A DNA stretch of 10,352 bases. It comes from Candidatus Bathyarchaeota archaeon. GTDB taxonomy: Archaea > Thermoproteota > Bathyarchaeia > Bathyarchaeales > SOJC01. Position 1 is the stretch's first letter; each line of letters begins with the position of its first letter. Positions 2,186-8,478 of the stretch are shown here, one piece after another. The translations under genes and the position numbers were made by a program. The stretch lies in assembly GCA_030641425.1 (NCBI GenBank), contig DAOWHM010000145.1, positions 1-10,352 of the forward strand, read 5' to 3'. The notes under the pieces are model-generated. The model was not told where the DNA came from. It made no database searches and was given only the letters and a program-made list of their open reading frames with translations.

Positions 2186-3142
2186 TCACTTAACTATACG
2201 CTGCCGCAACCCAACAAAAAAATCAGTAACATCAACATTCCCCCCACTAATTATTACCCCCACCCTTTCAGAACCCAAATCAATACAACCCGACAGAACA
2301 CCCGCAAGAGAAACAGCTCCAGAAGGCTCAACAACCAACTTCATCCTCTCCCAGAGAAACTGCATCGCATCCACAATCTCCTCCTCTGAAACAGTCACAA
2401 TCTGATCCACACCCCCCCGAATAATCCTAAAAGTATTACACCCCAAAGAAGTCCTCAAACCATCAGCAATCGTATCAGGATCCTCCATCGGCAATATCCG
2501 CCCAACCTCCAAAGACCTGTACGCATCATCCGCGTTCTTTGGCTCAACACCAATCACCTTCACCAAAGGCAACAAACCCTTCGCAGCCACCACCGTTCCA
2601 CTTAACAACCCTCCACCCCCAACTGGACAGAAAACATAATCTAACTCTCCAATCTCCTTGACCAATTCAAATGCTGCGGTCCCTGCCCCAATAATAATCT
2701 CAATATCGTTAGATGGATGAATAAGGGTGTAACCATATTCTTCCACAAGACGATGAGCAACCTCCACCCGATCCCTCGGACGGGAGCTACAAAAAACAAC
2801 TTCAGCTCCATAACCCTCTGTAGCTGCAACTTTCACATGAGGAGCGTTCTCAGGCATAACAATCACAGCCTTAACACCTAGAAGTTTAGCTGCCAAAGCA
2901 AGAGCTTGCGCGTGATTCCCCGAAGAGTGAGTAATTACTCCTTTTTCCTTTTGCCTCGACGACAACTGAGATACAGCGTTGAAGGCTCCTCGAAACTTGA
3001 AGGCTCCTGCCTTCTGAAAATTCTCACATTTAAGAAAACATTTCGCGCCAGTCATCGTATCTAATGTCGAAGAAGTCATTACAGGAGTTCGATTAACAAC
3101 TTCTCCTATGCACTCATAAGCCTTCATTACTTTTTTGAACAT
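2186..3142 (-). CDS. serine/threonine dehydratase-like PLP enzyme (fold type II)
   Basis: This 318-residue cytosolic PLP enzyme belongs to the threonine/serine dehydratase and serine racemase family. Members remove ammonia from hydroxy amino acids to give 2-oxoacids (pyruvate from serine, 2-oxobutanoate from threonine), or racemise or dehydrate serine or 3-hydroxyaspartate. Lys49 in GAFKFRGA is the expected Schiff-base lysine, SSGNHAQ (73-79) the substrate loop, GGGGL (175-179) the PLP phosphate cradle, and SGGNVD (299-304) the C-terminal cofactor loop. There is no ACT domain, so it resembles the short catabolic or racemase type rather than biosynthetic IlvA. Which substrate it uses cannot be read from sequence. 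The ATG has no clear ribosome site, but a TATA-like box 35 bases upstream predicts a near-leaderless mRNA. It follows the aldolase-Fae fusion on the same strand after about 69 bases. Confidence 0.9.
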   Translation of the reverse strand: MFKKVMKAYECIGEVVNRTPVMTSSTLDTMTGAKCFLKCENFQKAGAFKFRGAFNAVSQLSSRQKEKGVITHSSGNHAQALALAAKLLGVKAVIVMPENAPHVKVAATEGYGAEVVFCSSRPRDRVEVAHRLVEEYGYTLIHPSNDIEIIIGAGTAAFELVKEIGELDYVFCPVGGGGLLSGTVVAAKGLLPLVKVIGVEPKNADDAYRSLEVGRILPMEDPDTIADGLRTSLGCNTFRIIRGGVDQIVTVSEEEIVDAMQFLWERMKLVVEPSGAVSLAGVLSGCIDLGSERVGVIISGGNVDVTDFFVGLRQRIVK

Positions 3143-3211: not shown

Positions 3212-4693
3212 CTAAGGAGTATATTTGAATGGGTGTCTTGACCTGTCTTTGTTCTCCAACACTTCACTCACAGAAGGTCGGCCTTCAATTGCTCTTCTAA
3301 TAGCGTGTCGCATAGCCTTGTAGTTGTTGATGTACACTCTGTGCCGATTGATTGCAGAAGGATGCACAAACACATTGACTATGATTATCAAGTCTTCTGC
3401 ATTTTCTTTTGGTATGACACCGTCTTCAAGGTTATCTGCCACTGCTTTAGCTATGGCGGCTTGAGCGGGTCCATAAACCATGCTTGCTTGTCGCATGTTT
3501 TTTATTGTGACTGTGGGAACCATCAGAGTAATGGGTTTAACCACCACGTTAGGCTCCAAAATCGCCACCAAGGGCTCATGTCCAGGAGTTGGATTCGCTT
3601 TTGCTCTTGCGTATGCTTCGCCAACTGGGCCTTCCTTCTCTCCAATCATCAAATCAATATGAGCCACCTCAGAGTCTTTCCCTGCCAAAGCTTCACCTAT
3701 TCTCAACTTAAATTCACGAATAACATTGGGTGTGATATGAACAGCTGCAAATCTCTCTTCCAAGACCTTTTCGCCAACTTCGAACTTCACTGGCTTGGCC
3801 TTGATCTTCCCGATCTTCTCCAAATCCAAGCGCAACTCTTCCCTCGCTTCATAAGTAAGCTCTCCTCCTACACTGAGAGGCTGTCTAACAGATCCTACTT
3901 TTACTCCCATCATATTCAAAGCTTCTTTCGCTCCCACAGCACCACTCTGAACCGTAATCCTAGCAATCTTCTGGACCTTACGTTGAAGTTCACGAGCCCC
4001 CTGTAAGTCACCTTCTCTAACCTTATTGAACACTTCAACCCAAATATCTGGAATGAAGTTGGCACTTGCTAAGATAGCCCCACTAGCTCCTGCCGCCAAC
4101 GCAGCCATAACCACTTCATCATGACCACACATCACATTGATCTTATCCCCTACCTTCTCCAAAACTGTCAAAATGAAGTTCAGTTGCCCACTACTGTCCT
4201 TTACGCCAACCACATTAGGTATCTGAGCTAAGTCCTCTACAATCTGCCAAGGCAAAGGCAAGCCAGTACACTGAGGTATATTGTAAAGGATTATCGGCAG
4301 ATCTACTTCAGATGCAATTGTGAAAAAATGCTCGTAAAGGCCTCTAGTAGATGGTTTCGCGTAGAAAGGTGTCACAATCAAAGAAGCATCTGCACCAGCG
4401 TCCTTGGCGTACTTTGTCATCTCCAACGCTTGCCTAGTTCCACTAGCTCCCGTACCAGCAACAACCGGAACTCTACCATTAACCTCATCAATAACAAGAT
4501 CAAGAACCCGTTTCCTCTCTTCAATGGTCATGTTGATGAATTCCCCTGTAGTCCCACATGGTACGACCCCATGGACACCCCTTTCAATACATCTGTTAAC
4601 CAAAACCCGCATCGAAACCTCATCTATTTCATCTCCACCTTTCGTGAAGGGTGTTACCAAAGCAGGCATTATTCCCTCTAGCCTGAAGACCAA
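3212..4693 (-). CDS. fusion: dihydrodipicolinate-synthase-like aldolase + formaldehyde-activating enzyme (Fae)
   Basis: This is a 493-residue two-domain protein. Residues 1 to about 300 are a DapA/N-acetylneuraminate-lyase class I aldolase, with CGTTGE at 46-51, catalytic Tyr137 in LYNIP and Schiff-base Lys165 in GVKDSSG. In DHDPS the tyrosine is followed by PSRTG, whose Arg binds the substrate carboxylate; here it is PQCTG, with Cys142 in that place, so true DHDPS activity is doubtful. Residues from about 325 to 493 match Fae, which condenses formaldehyde with tetrahydromethanopterin: IGEAL, EVAHIDL with the catalytic-type His345, KPITLM (386-391), YGPAQ (407-411), VFVH (441-444) and the closing HPF (487-489). 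The start is TTG, chosen because GAGGAG (4700-4705) sits six bases upstream. Known Fae fusions join Hps; a DapA-like partner is one I do not recall being characterised. It may couple formaldehyde release or use by the aldolase to capture by Fae. Confidence 0.92.
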   Translation of the reverse strand: MVFRLEGIMPALVTPFTKGGDEIDEVSMRVLVNRCIERGVHGVVPCGTTGEFINMTIEERKRVLDLVIDEVNGRVPVVAGTGASGTRQALEMTKYAKDAGADASLIVTPFYAKPSTRGLYEHFFTIASEVDLPIILYNIPQCTGLPLPWQIVEDLAQIPNVVGVKDSSGQLNFILTVLEKVGDKINVMCGHDEVVMAALAAGASGAILASANFIPDIWVEVFNKVREGDLQGARELQRKVQKIARITVQSGAVGAKEALNMMGVKVGSVRQPLSVGGELTYEAREELRLDLEKIGKIKAKPVKFEVGEKVLEERFAAVHITPNVIREFKLRIGEALAGKDSEVAHIDLMIGEKEGPVGEAYARAKANPTPGHEPLVAILEPNVVVKPITLMVPTVTIKNMRQASMVYGPAQAAIAKAVADNLEDGVIPKENAEDLIIIVNVFVHPSAINRHRVYINNYKAMRHAIRRAIEGRPSVSEVLENKDRSRHPFKYTP

Positions 4694-4933: not shown

Positions 4934-6220
4934 TTGAACGAATTAAGAGAGAGGTTAATGATTAAAGAGGAGAATCTGAGGAGAGTAAATGAGTTCCTCC
5001 TGAAGGATGACAACCCCCTCATAAATGGTTTAATCGAAGTAGTCGATAAATATGGTTCTGTGGATGAAATCAACAGGAAAGCGAAAGAAGCTCGCAAGCT
5101 TGAAAACCTTATGAACCGTCTAAGAGAGAAGCACTCACCATATATTGATGATCTCGAATGGTTGATGAAACAGAGAAATAGAGACGCTTTTATTAACATC
5201 CCTGAATACCGAAGAAAGATTCTAGGTAGTAAAGCTGACACTACAAAATTCGACGAATCATTCGCAGTTACCCTAGAGATTAGTGCATGCAACTTCTTCC
5301 CATGGGTTATAGAAGAAGCAAAGAAGGCAATTGCCCAACAAGATCTCATGCCTGGACGTTTCATTCGGGTACGCTCCATGAAAGAGCAAGTTGAAGATGG
5401 TGAGATCTTGGCTTTTGCAGCTGCTGCTCAAATCGTTGGAGCTTCCTATGTGGAGACCTTAGATACTAAAGGAACGTTGCCAGGAGCTGACGGGCTACCC
5501 ATTAATGTTCATCTAGGCGGTCCTGAAACCATCACTGGATACTTTGGCGGTGTTGGGTTGCCAAATGAGTATGCCTTGAAATGGGTTGATGAATACTTAC
5601 ATTACTATACTGAATACGGCATCCAACAAGTGTTAAATGTTAACATAGGAAGTGTGCTGTTAGCATATTGGCTCTTCAAGTTTGGAATCGACATTGAGTT
5701 TAAGATATCAGTCTTCCTCGGAAATGACAATCCTTACTCTTGTTTCTGGACGTTAATGACTGCCAAACTCTTCAGCCGTGATGATGGCACAAGCCCCCTC
5801 ATAGGGTTTAACTTGTCAAATTCAGTCAATAACGAGACTATCGAAATGTCAGCGTATATCCGAAAGGCTTTCGACTTTGAAGACATCGTTCGCTTGGAAC
5901 ATCATATTGTGGAAACCTACAAGAGCATAGTCAGACAACCATACGACCGGCTGAATGAGCTTCTTGACATCGCTGATCACATAAAAAACATAAGCGCTAA
6001 ACATGAGGGAGGGCTGCTTGAAGTAGAGAAAACCCGGGAACATCCTTCAGACATATTGGACTACTTTATTCCCAAGAAAGACATTGATGCACAGGATTTG
6101 ATGCAAAAGCTTTTGATTAACTACCTTGACAAGCATGATTCTATGAATAAGACTGCTAAAGCTTTGACCGAACGAGGTTTAGCAGTCGTTCCGGCTCAGC
6201 GCCTGCATATAATGAAGTAA
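4934..6220 (+). CDS. uncharacterised 428-residue protein, probably a cytosolic enzyme
   Basis: I do not recognise this family. The protein is soluble, with no signal peptide and no membrane helix. A charged, helical N-terminus (about 1-100, with Lys/Arg/Glu-rich segments and coiled-coil character) is followed by an alternating strand/helix body (about 110-330). Glycine-rich loops that look like active-site turns are LDTKGTLPGADGLP (176-189) and HLGGPETITGYFGG (193-206); FLGNDNPYSCFW (261-272) and GFNLSNSVNNETIE (291-304) are further candidate loops. A helical C-terminus (about 310-428) ends the protein. The pattern suggests a TIM-barrel-like enzyme, but this is only an impression. It starts at TTG after an unusually strong double ribosome site and is divergent from the aldolase-Fae gene, which hints at a shared pathway. 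The next gene is convergent, with stops 14 bases apart. Confidence 0.85.
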   Translation: MNELRERLMIKEENLRRVNEFLLKDDNPLINGLIEVVDKYGSVDEINRKAKEARKLENLMNRLREKHSPYIDDLEWLMKQRNRDAFINIPEYRRKILGSKADTTKFDESFAVTLEISACNFFPWVIEEAKKAIAQQDLMPGRFIRVRSMKEQVEDGEILAFAAAAQIVGASYVETLDTKGTLPGADGLPINVHLGGPETITGYFGGVGLPNEYALKWVDEYLHYYTEYGIQQVLNVNIGSVLLAYWLFKFGIDIEFKISVFLGNDNPYSCFWTLMTAKLFSRDDGTSPLIGFNLSNSVNNETIEMSAYIRKAFDFEDIVRLEHHIVETYKSIVRQPYDRLNELLDIADHIKNISAKHEGGLLEVEKTREHPSDILDYFIPKKDIDAQDLMQKLLINYLDKHDSMNKTAKALTERGLAVVPAQRLHIMK

Positions 6221-7526: not shown

Positions 7527-7934
7527 CTATTTGTTTGTTGGGTTTTTCATTGTTGAGCAGACTGGCTTGTTAAGGATGCTGTGGACGCCATTTACTAAGT
7601 TTTCGCGGATTCCAATGTTGCTTATTTTCCGGCATATGTGGTTTAGAGAGTTTTCAGTGAAATTTAGTAGGTTTTGTCCTTCGTTGGTGAGTTTGTATAC
7701 TTTTCTCGGTCTTTCGTTGCTGAGGTCCCACTGGCTTTTGATGTAGCCTTTTTCTTCGAGGCTGTTGAGAAGTGGGTATATTGTGCTGGGTCCGAAGTAT
7801 ACGCCGAAGTTTTTTCGTATGCTTGATATTATTTGATATCCGTGCGATGGTCGGGCGTTTAGGAATTGGAGGATTACAAGGTCTAGGAGTCCCTTCATGA
7901 GTTTATTTTGCACTTCTCTATTTTTTTGTCCCAT
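7527..7934 (-). CDS. PadR-family transcriptional regulator
   Basis: This 135-residue winged-helix repressor-type protein has the PadR core complete: the first helices with LLDLVILQFL (16-25), HGYQI (31-35), the recognition segment STIYPLLNSLEEKGYI (50-65) and the wing RPRKVYKLTNEG (75-86). A C-terminal helical part of about 45 residues follows, which in the family supports dimerisation. The ATG at 7934 is preceded by GAGGT at normal spacing. Coding-strand bases are strongly A/C-biased. The gene is divergent from a second PadR gene and shares with it a 226-base region containing an inverted repeat at 7991-8008 near a likely TATA box, so autoregulation is plausible. The small membrane protein at 7060-7293 lies downstream. 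Ligand and targets are unknown. Confidence 0.9.
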   Translation of the reverse strand: MGQKNREVQNKLMKGLLDLVILQFLNARPSHGYQIISSIRKNFGVYFGPSTIYPLLNSLEEKGYIKSQWDLSNERPRKVYKLTNEGQNLLNFTENSLNHICRKISNIGIRENLVNGVHSILNKPVCSTMKNPTNK

Positions 7935-8160: not shown

Positions 8161-8478
8161 GTGACATATATGACCCAGAGCTTCAAGAAGGAAATTGTAC
8201 AACACATATTCAGAAATCTCTTAGACATTATGGTTTTGAGGTTATTGAGAAGGGATCCAATGTGGGGATACAAGATGATAAAAATCGTTGAAGAAAAATA
8301 CGGAATAAAGCTACGCCATGGCGCTCTATACCCCTTACTCAACAACCTAGAAAGGAAAGGTTTCCTCCGAAGTAAGAAGGAAACAAAGAGAGGACGAGTC
8401 AGAAAGATCTACGAAATAACCTCCAAAGGCATACAACTCGTAGACGCATACAATGAATTCATGAGAGAACAAATCTGA
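8161..8478 (+). CDS. PadR-family transcriptional regulator, minimal form
   Basis: This 105-residue protein is a bare PadR winged-helix domain with almost no C-terminal dimerisation helix. Core pieces are LLDIMVLRLLRRDPMWGYKM (20-39), HGALYPLLNNLERKGFLRS (53-71) and the wing RGRVRKIYEITSKG (77-90). The start may be GTG at 8161 or ATG at 8170; neither has a ribosome site, so a short-leader mRNA is likely, with CTATATGTAAAG (8114-8125) as a possible TATA element. TATATGT (8115-8121) and ACATATA (8164-8170) form an inverted pair around the start, a possible autoregulatory site. It is divergent from the other PadR gene and 83 bases upstream of the prenyl-synthase-like gene on the same strand, which could be its target. 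The two PadR proteins are clearly different in sequence, so this is not a recent duplication. Confidence 0.88.
   Translation: MTYMTQSFKKEIVQHIFRNLLDIMVLRLLRRDPMWGYKMIKIVEEKYGIKLRHGALYPLLNNLERKGFLRSKKETKRGRVRKIYEITSKGIQLVDAYNEFMREQI

Follow-up and report, generated by a model that had tools for sequence, protein, structure and literature searches.

The aldolase-Fae fusion gene and its surroundings

The window (the whole stretch of DNA that was analysed, 10,352 nucleotides) lies on contig 17 of a host genome of 1.0 Mb that is 79.5% complete. On its minus strand, a single frame encodes both a DHDPS-family class I aldolase and a formaldehyde-activating (Fae) domain. The genes and features relevant to this fusion are as follows.

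3212..4693, minus strand: aldolase-Fae fusion gene, 493 codons, TTG start at 4693 and stop at 3212
3815..4681, minus strand: DHDPS-family class I aldolase half, residues 5-293 (from PF00701, alignment to solved DapA chains and column counts)
3224..3700, minus strand: Fae half, residues 332-490 (from PF08714, a genome search match at 3227-3700 and column counts)
4934..6220, plus strand: protein A, 428 aa, divergent gene, a conserved partner found in 38/80 fusion loci
2186..3142, minus strand: PLP-dependent ammonia-lyase-like gene, 70 bp downstream of the fusion (from Pfam/NCBIfam)
7527-7934, minus strand: PadR-type regulator, back to back with the next
8161-8478, plus strand: PadR-type regulator, back to back with the previous
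L001:1180-2682, contig C66 of the same genome: Fae-Hps

The TTG start of the fusion gene is preceded by GGAG, and translation of 3212-4693 on the forward strand meets several stops. Pfam assigns residues 5-292 to DHDPS (PF00701, E 1.6e-79) and residues 332-489 to Fae (PF08714, E 2.7e-63; 213.2 bits against a cut-off of 27). Similarly, the fusion scores above the cut-offs of the NCBIfam models one_C_fae (TIGR03126; 221 bits against 118) and dapA (TIGR00674; 246.6 bits against 206), the latter being the only one passed among the aldolase models that the fusion matches. The nanA model (N-acetylneuraminate lyase; 164.5 bits against 382) and the Fae-Hps model (NF009833; 193.8 bits against 274) are matched below their cut-offs. 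A preliminary description of this DNA had read the 493-codon frame, without naming its strand, as a DapA/NAL-type class I aldolase joined to a complete Fae domain, and the frame and its Pfam and NCBIfam matches bear this out.

The aldolase half of the window protein has Thr48-Thr49, Tyr137 and Lys165, with Cys142 at the position of the substrate-binding Arg of DapA, and the Fae half has His345, Asn382, Arg401, YGPAQ (407-411), His444 and His487-Pro488. All of the residues and motifs that had been named in advance (Lys165, Tyr137, His345, YGPAQ and the HPF end) are present, and the catalytic residues are conserved in both halves.

Distribution of the fusion

The full-length fusion, free of internal stops, is present at 72-100% identity in 22 of the 61 genomes of the host order, the host's own included. 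These 22 genomes are referred to below as carriers; G051, which has only contig-end fragments of the fusion, was placed among the 39 non-carriers. The set of 61 includes several members of one genus, the association counts take no account of relatedness, and absence from a genome means that no match was found in an incomplete assembly. In a protein search, the best 120 of 7336 matches all bear both Pfam domains, and where a source is named among these, the usual label is '4-hydroxy-tetrahydrodipicolinate synthase' of Bathyarchaeota. The window protein and 65 of 120 listed proteins make up each of the alignments A1 and A2, and alignment A4 comprises 53 of 120 listed. Additionally, when named species genomes were scanned with a profile, 268 relatives emerged, of which the best 80 were read; the match covers both halves in all 80. 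These 80 are 49-88% identical, fall in four higher groups and include single-contig chromosomes, and their titles name Bathyarchaeota, Lokiarchaeota, Hermodarchaeota, Njordarchaeum, Thermoplasmata, Methanomassiliicoccales and Chloroflexota. Given the full-length copies within the order and the two-half matches beyond it, single-contig chromosomes among them, the join is due neither to chance nor to an assembly error. The preliminary description had raised the latter, by which close relatives might have separate genes; they have the full-length fusion instead, and the two-domain architecture extends across Bathyarchaeota, Asgard, Thermoplasmata and Chloroflexota.

Trees built separately from the aldolase and Fae halves yield mostly the same groups, although copy 2 of the Chloroflexota tandem pairs (see below) is not resolved into one group in the Fae tree. 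In the aldolase tree, the aldolase halves of the fusions cluster together as a single group apart from eight outgroup sequences (support 0.76); the corresponding result in the Fae tree is trivial, since it has a single Fae outgroup. As the two halves agree on most groups, the join looks old and co-inherited.

Some other genes recur at fusion loci. The ammonia-lyase-like neighbour is linked to the fusion in the host's own genus only (2/22 carrier loci) and probably lies outside the fusion module. The PadR pair adjoins a polyprenyl synthase-like gene, and members of the regulators' cluster recur in 7/22 carrier loci, the window included. Genes resembling aldehyde ferredoxin oxidoreductase lie near the fusion in L042, L043, L047, L049, L141 and L149; one member was run against NCBIfam and scored below the cut-off, and the recurrence may reflect the plain abundance of such genes.

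The Fae half and its association with Mch

Column counts over proteins with a single copy of the fusion (the window protein included) show His345 in 62/62 and Gly408, Pro409 and Gln411 in 61/62, the remaining protein being masked with X at these positions. The conserved His and YGPAQ are catalytic features of Fae. Asn382 (58/62), Arg401 (60/62) and Asp347 (57/62) are also widely retained.

In contrast to these proteins, a tandem type (L137-L158) has two fusions, mostly side by side, with a single copy in some loci. It is found under Chloroflexota, Thermoplasmata and Methanomassiliicoccales titles and in the Bathyarchaeota loci L137 and L140. Copies 1 and 2 were assigned by hand from the half-trees and residues (17 and 15 sequences, respectively). 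Copy 1 has lost His345 in 14/17 and keeps Gln411 in 17/17; it has also lost the terminal Pro in 17/17 and the terminal His in 16/17, one protein (L158) ending at a contig edge. Conversely, copy 2 keeps His345 in 15/15 and has lost Gln411 in 15/15 and Gly408-Pro409 in 14/15. Such complementary losses in neighbouring copies suggest that the pair may form a split or heteromeric Fae site. In Chloroflexota and Thermoplasmata, the aldolase is retained where Fae has lost catalytic residues, as is the partner protein B described below.

The methanopterin-type enzyme Mch was matched in all 11 of the Asgard genomes tested that carry the fusion with an intact Fae half, and in 2/14 tandem-type genomes, a count that leaves out L137 and L140 (Fisher p 2e-5, uncorrected for relatedness, over 25 genomes whose completeness is not given). 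Both tandem-type genomes with Mch (L149 and L151) have degenerate Fae halves too. Within the host order, Mch was matched in 54/61 genomes, including 18/22 carriers (the G008 match is a short piece at a contig end), and it cannot separate carriers there because most non-carriers have it as well. No Mch match was found in the host's own genome, which is 79.5% complete, whereas the same-genus sister G001 has one; carriers G004, G005 and G060 were also without a match, G005 and G060 being single-contig genomes that are 85% and 77% complete, respectively. The marker is imperfect, as it also matches the control Haloferax volcanii, a folate user. Nevertheless, the pairing outside the order of intact Fae with Mch, and of degenerate Fae mostly with its absence, is the strongest evidence here for a working Fae half.

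The Fae part of the fusion is 47-53% identical to that of the long frames in the order that contain Fae. In the host's own genome, this long frame is Fae-Hps. It has about 105 extra residues N-terminal to Fae, with a helix-turn-helix-like stretch recognised by eye, and open frames of like length around the second Fae match occur commonly across the order.

The aldolase half

The aldolase half was compared across 94 aligned copies, comprising the window protein and 93 copies from the loci of the best 80 of the 268 relatives. Thr48, Thr49, Tyr137 and Lys165 are identical in all 94. The closest solved relatives are DapA enzymes, and yet the column of DapA Arg138, the residue that binds aspartate semialdehyde, is occupied by C, V, A, T or L in 94/94 copies. 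With no arginine there to clamp aspartate semialdehyde, a small aldehyde without charge would fit as substrate. Strong matches to DapB (E below 1e-15) were found in 0/22 carriers, compared with 26/39 non-carriers of the order; in 15 carriers there are weaker DapB matches, limited to the N-terminal part.

Conserved partner proteins

Two protein families accompany the fusion. Protein A, which has no match of useful score in Pfam or NCBIfam and for which the structural model is poor, is the immediate neighbour of the fusion in 31 of its 38 loci (among the ORFs compared). Protein B, a TIM-barrel protein of 312 aa for which no specific relative was found, occurs in 19/80 fusion loci and is the immediate neighbour in 16. 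The two were never found together at a fusion locus (0/80), and one or the other is present in 57/80. With the inclusion of fragments and of a distant A-like pair, A reaches 42/80 and 19/80 loci are left without A or B, several of them on short contigs. In searches for members of the two families, there were at least 8000 matches for A (all of the 8000 candidates scored) and matches in 2327 of 4628 candidates for B.

The association also holds within the host order, where A is present in 19/22 carriers and 1/39 non-carriers (G021, which has A without the fusion), and in the three carriers that lack A, B lies immediately upstream of the fusion. The gene for A is split in two in G010, G011, G042 and G017 (in G017 at contig ends) and has one stop in G060. 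Carrier G002 has A together with a distant relative of B elsewhere in its genome, and another distant copy of B is present in non-carrier G041. Non-carrier G028 has the gene order B-PanB-aminotransferase (the aminotransferase identified by eye), with B immediately upstream of PanB, an enzyme that adds a C1 unit to a 2-oxo acid.

Distant relatives of B were additionally found on four bacterial plasmids. Those of Thermomicrobium and Streptomyces adjoin genes for an enolase-superfamily dehydratase and a sugar transporter (the Streptomyces transporter identified by eye). The Enterobacter relative has a different gene setting, and dehydratase or sugar transporter genes were not seen, by eye, near the Nonomuraea relative. 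Proteins related to B (L159 and L161 on bacterial plasmids, and L055) are labelled 'U32 family peptidase' or are unannotated, and sugar-acid-like operons are seen among their settings; the peptidase name looks doubtful.

Proposed reaction and alternative readings

Taken together, the fusion is probably part of an undescribed formaldehyde-handling pathway. Our leading reading, which is a tentative one, is that it is a bifunctional C1 enzyme, in which an aldolase acting on a hydroxymethyl 2-oxo acid would be joined to a working Fae that passes formaldehyde to or from tetrahydromethanopterin. In the aldolase half, Lys165 would form a Schiff base with pyruvate and, in the absence of the arginine clamp, a small neutral aldehyde is the likely second substrate. 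Because Fae shares the chain, formaldehyde is the obvious candidate, and the aldol would then be 4-hydroxy-2-oxobutanoate or a close relative, although the aldolase half itself bears no marker for formaldehyde as the aldehyde. Most likely, the aldolase would split a hydroxymethyl 2-oxo acid, in the simplest case 4-hydroxy-2-oxobutanoate (2-keto-3-deoxy-tetronate), into pyruvate and formaldehyde, and the Fae half may couple the formaldehyde to tetrahydromethanopterin before it escapes. Direct channelling of formaldehyde between the two halves, as the preliminary description had suggested, would be a putative feature of such an enzyme. The reverse is chemically possible, with Fae freeing formaldehyde for addition to pyruvate. 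We lean towards cleavage, since the aldolase family has a catabolic look, as do the settings of two B relatives, and the carriers resemble scavengers; the position of B next to PanB points instead to synthesis. Such a pathway would require a third protein, a role that A or B could fill.

Alternatively, the aldolase half may act on a longer 2-keto-3-deoxy sugar acid, releasing glyceraldehyde or glycolaldehyde, with Fae trapping formaldehyde that arises elsewhere, for instance from A or B. Aldolases of this kind belong to the DHDPS family and their models match the fusion below cut-off, operons of a sugar-acid-like kind surround two distant relatives of B, and uronate isomerase adjoins the fusion in the Lokiarchaeota loci L120 and L125 (same cluster; identified by Pfam in L120). 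The tandem type, with its degenerate Fae and intact aldolase, is also as this reading would have it. Nevertheless, all aldolase models except dapA fall below their cut-offs, and the presence of two active sites on one chain conserved in Bathyarchaeota and Asgard would be left unexplained. We regard a sugar-acid substrate as a serious candidate that is somewhat unlikely.

Returning to the bifunctional C1 enzyme, a wider version of it can be drawn that we consider speculative and unlikely as a whole. The fusion and A or B would constitute an undescribed C1 pathway across archaea and Chloroflexota, in which a C4 hydroxy-oxo acid is converted to pyruvate and carrier-bound formaldehyde without free formaldehyde, as the C1 member of the keto-deoxy-acid aldolase series. 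Additionally, in hosts mostly without Mch, the tandem pair would divide the Fae site (GPxQ in copy 1, His345 in copy 2) to serve another carrier such as folate.

A further possibility is that the fusion makes 4-hydroxy-2-oxobutanoate for homoserine, standing in for homoserine dehydrogenase in a natural homoserine route. Homoserine dehydrogenase was matched in 0/22 carriers and 31/39 non-carriers, and aspartate-semialdehyde dehydrogenase in 0/22 and 35/39, respectively; the former contrast persists within families f6 and f7, where G051, G052 and G054 are without both (uncorrected for relatedness). The B-PanB-aminotransferase order of G028 is also suggestive, but that genome has homoserine dehydrogenase and no fusion. 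Downstream steps fit less well, as homoserine kinase ThrB scores above cut-off in 0/22 carriers (21/39 non-carriers) and threonine synthase ThrC in just 8/22 (35/39 non-carriers). The ThrB result is not decisive, since of the 31 genomes in which homoserine dehydrogenase was matched, 13 have no ThrB above cut-off either, and the model passes in 11/14 control genomes. The homoserine-to-threonine version is thus weakened, and a homoserine role in general appears quite improbable. A simpler reading of the missing genes is that carriers are aspartate-family auxotrophs feeding on outside organic matter.

It is very improbable that the Fae half is merely structural or regulatory, even in single-copy proteins: the degenerate Fae halves of the tandem pairs would allow it, whereas the near-complete retention of His345 and Gln411 in single-copy proteins and the company of Mch outside the order argue against it. 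Least credible of all is a lysine-pathway DapA that carries Fae as a passenger, which has in its favour the TIGR00674 score and the database names of relatives and is already largely contradicted by the absent substrate Arg, the lack of strong DapB matches and the lack of any aspartate-semialdehyde dehydrogenase match in 22/22 carriers.

Implications

Bathyarchaeia abound in sediments, and arguments about the C1 metabolism of these archaea have been made mostly from gene lists. One study treats the presence of fae in Bathyarchaeia as a sign of metabolism that involves formaldehyde or methanol or is linked to RuBisCO (PMC11631310). A fusion named as a lysine enzyme, or tallied as plain fae, would be misleading in both cases, and the sequences are already public under this ill-fitting name. 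If the bifunctional reading is true, the fusion would be a natural enzyme that links the aldol chemistry of pyruvate with a C1 carrier; synthetic methylotrophy has taken this step from a promiscuous enzyme (PMC8879981). Beyond the preliminary description, the partner genes A and B, the spread into Asgard and Chloroflexota and the degenerate tandem pairs are new, as are the association of intact Fae with Mch and the carriers without aspartate-semialdehyde or homoserine dehydrogenase matches. The two partner families gain a testable context.

Comparison with known systems

No description of the fusion was seen among the open-access papers listed in the search, most subscription journals being outside its scope; the preliminary description had likewise named no characterised example. 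The closest known kind of fusion is Fae-Hps, in which the partner of Fae makes or uses formaldehyde. Both place Fae and an aldolase on one chain, and the host genome has both proteins. However, Fae is C-terminal in the present fusion and N-terminal in Fae-Hps, and its partner is a Schiff-base aldolase of the DHDPS family rather than an enzyme of the OMP-decarboxylase fold. The preliminary description had set the two apart, and the NF009833 score below cut-off, the PF00701 partner and the separate Fae-Hps in the host's own genome confirm that they are distinct.

Compared with stand-alone Fae, the Fae half is likewise a full domain with the conserved His and YGPAQ and a score above the TIGR03126 cut-off, but here it is one part of a two-domain protein. 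The two parent families also differ in assembly, Fae forming pentamers and DHDPS enzymes tetramers. Similarly, the aldolase half shares with DapA its family, the Lys, Tyr and Thr-Thr residues and a score above the TIGR00674 cut-off, and differs in its lack of the substrate arginine, in the lack of strong DapB matches in carriers and in the attached Fae. RhmA is a metal-dependent class II enzyme, whereas the fusion has a Schiff-base Lys. The reaction proposed for the fusion would nevertheless be the same as that of RhmA, between pyruvate and formaldehyde: PMC8879981 describes pyruvate and formaldehyde aldol chemistry in engineered routes, including a homoserine cycle in which RhmA serves, through a promiscuous activity, as a 4-hydroxy-2-oxobutanoate aldolase.
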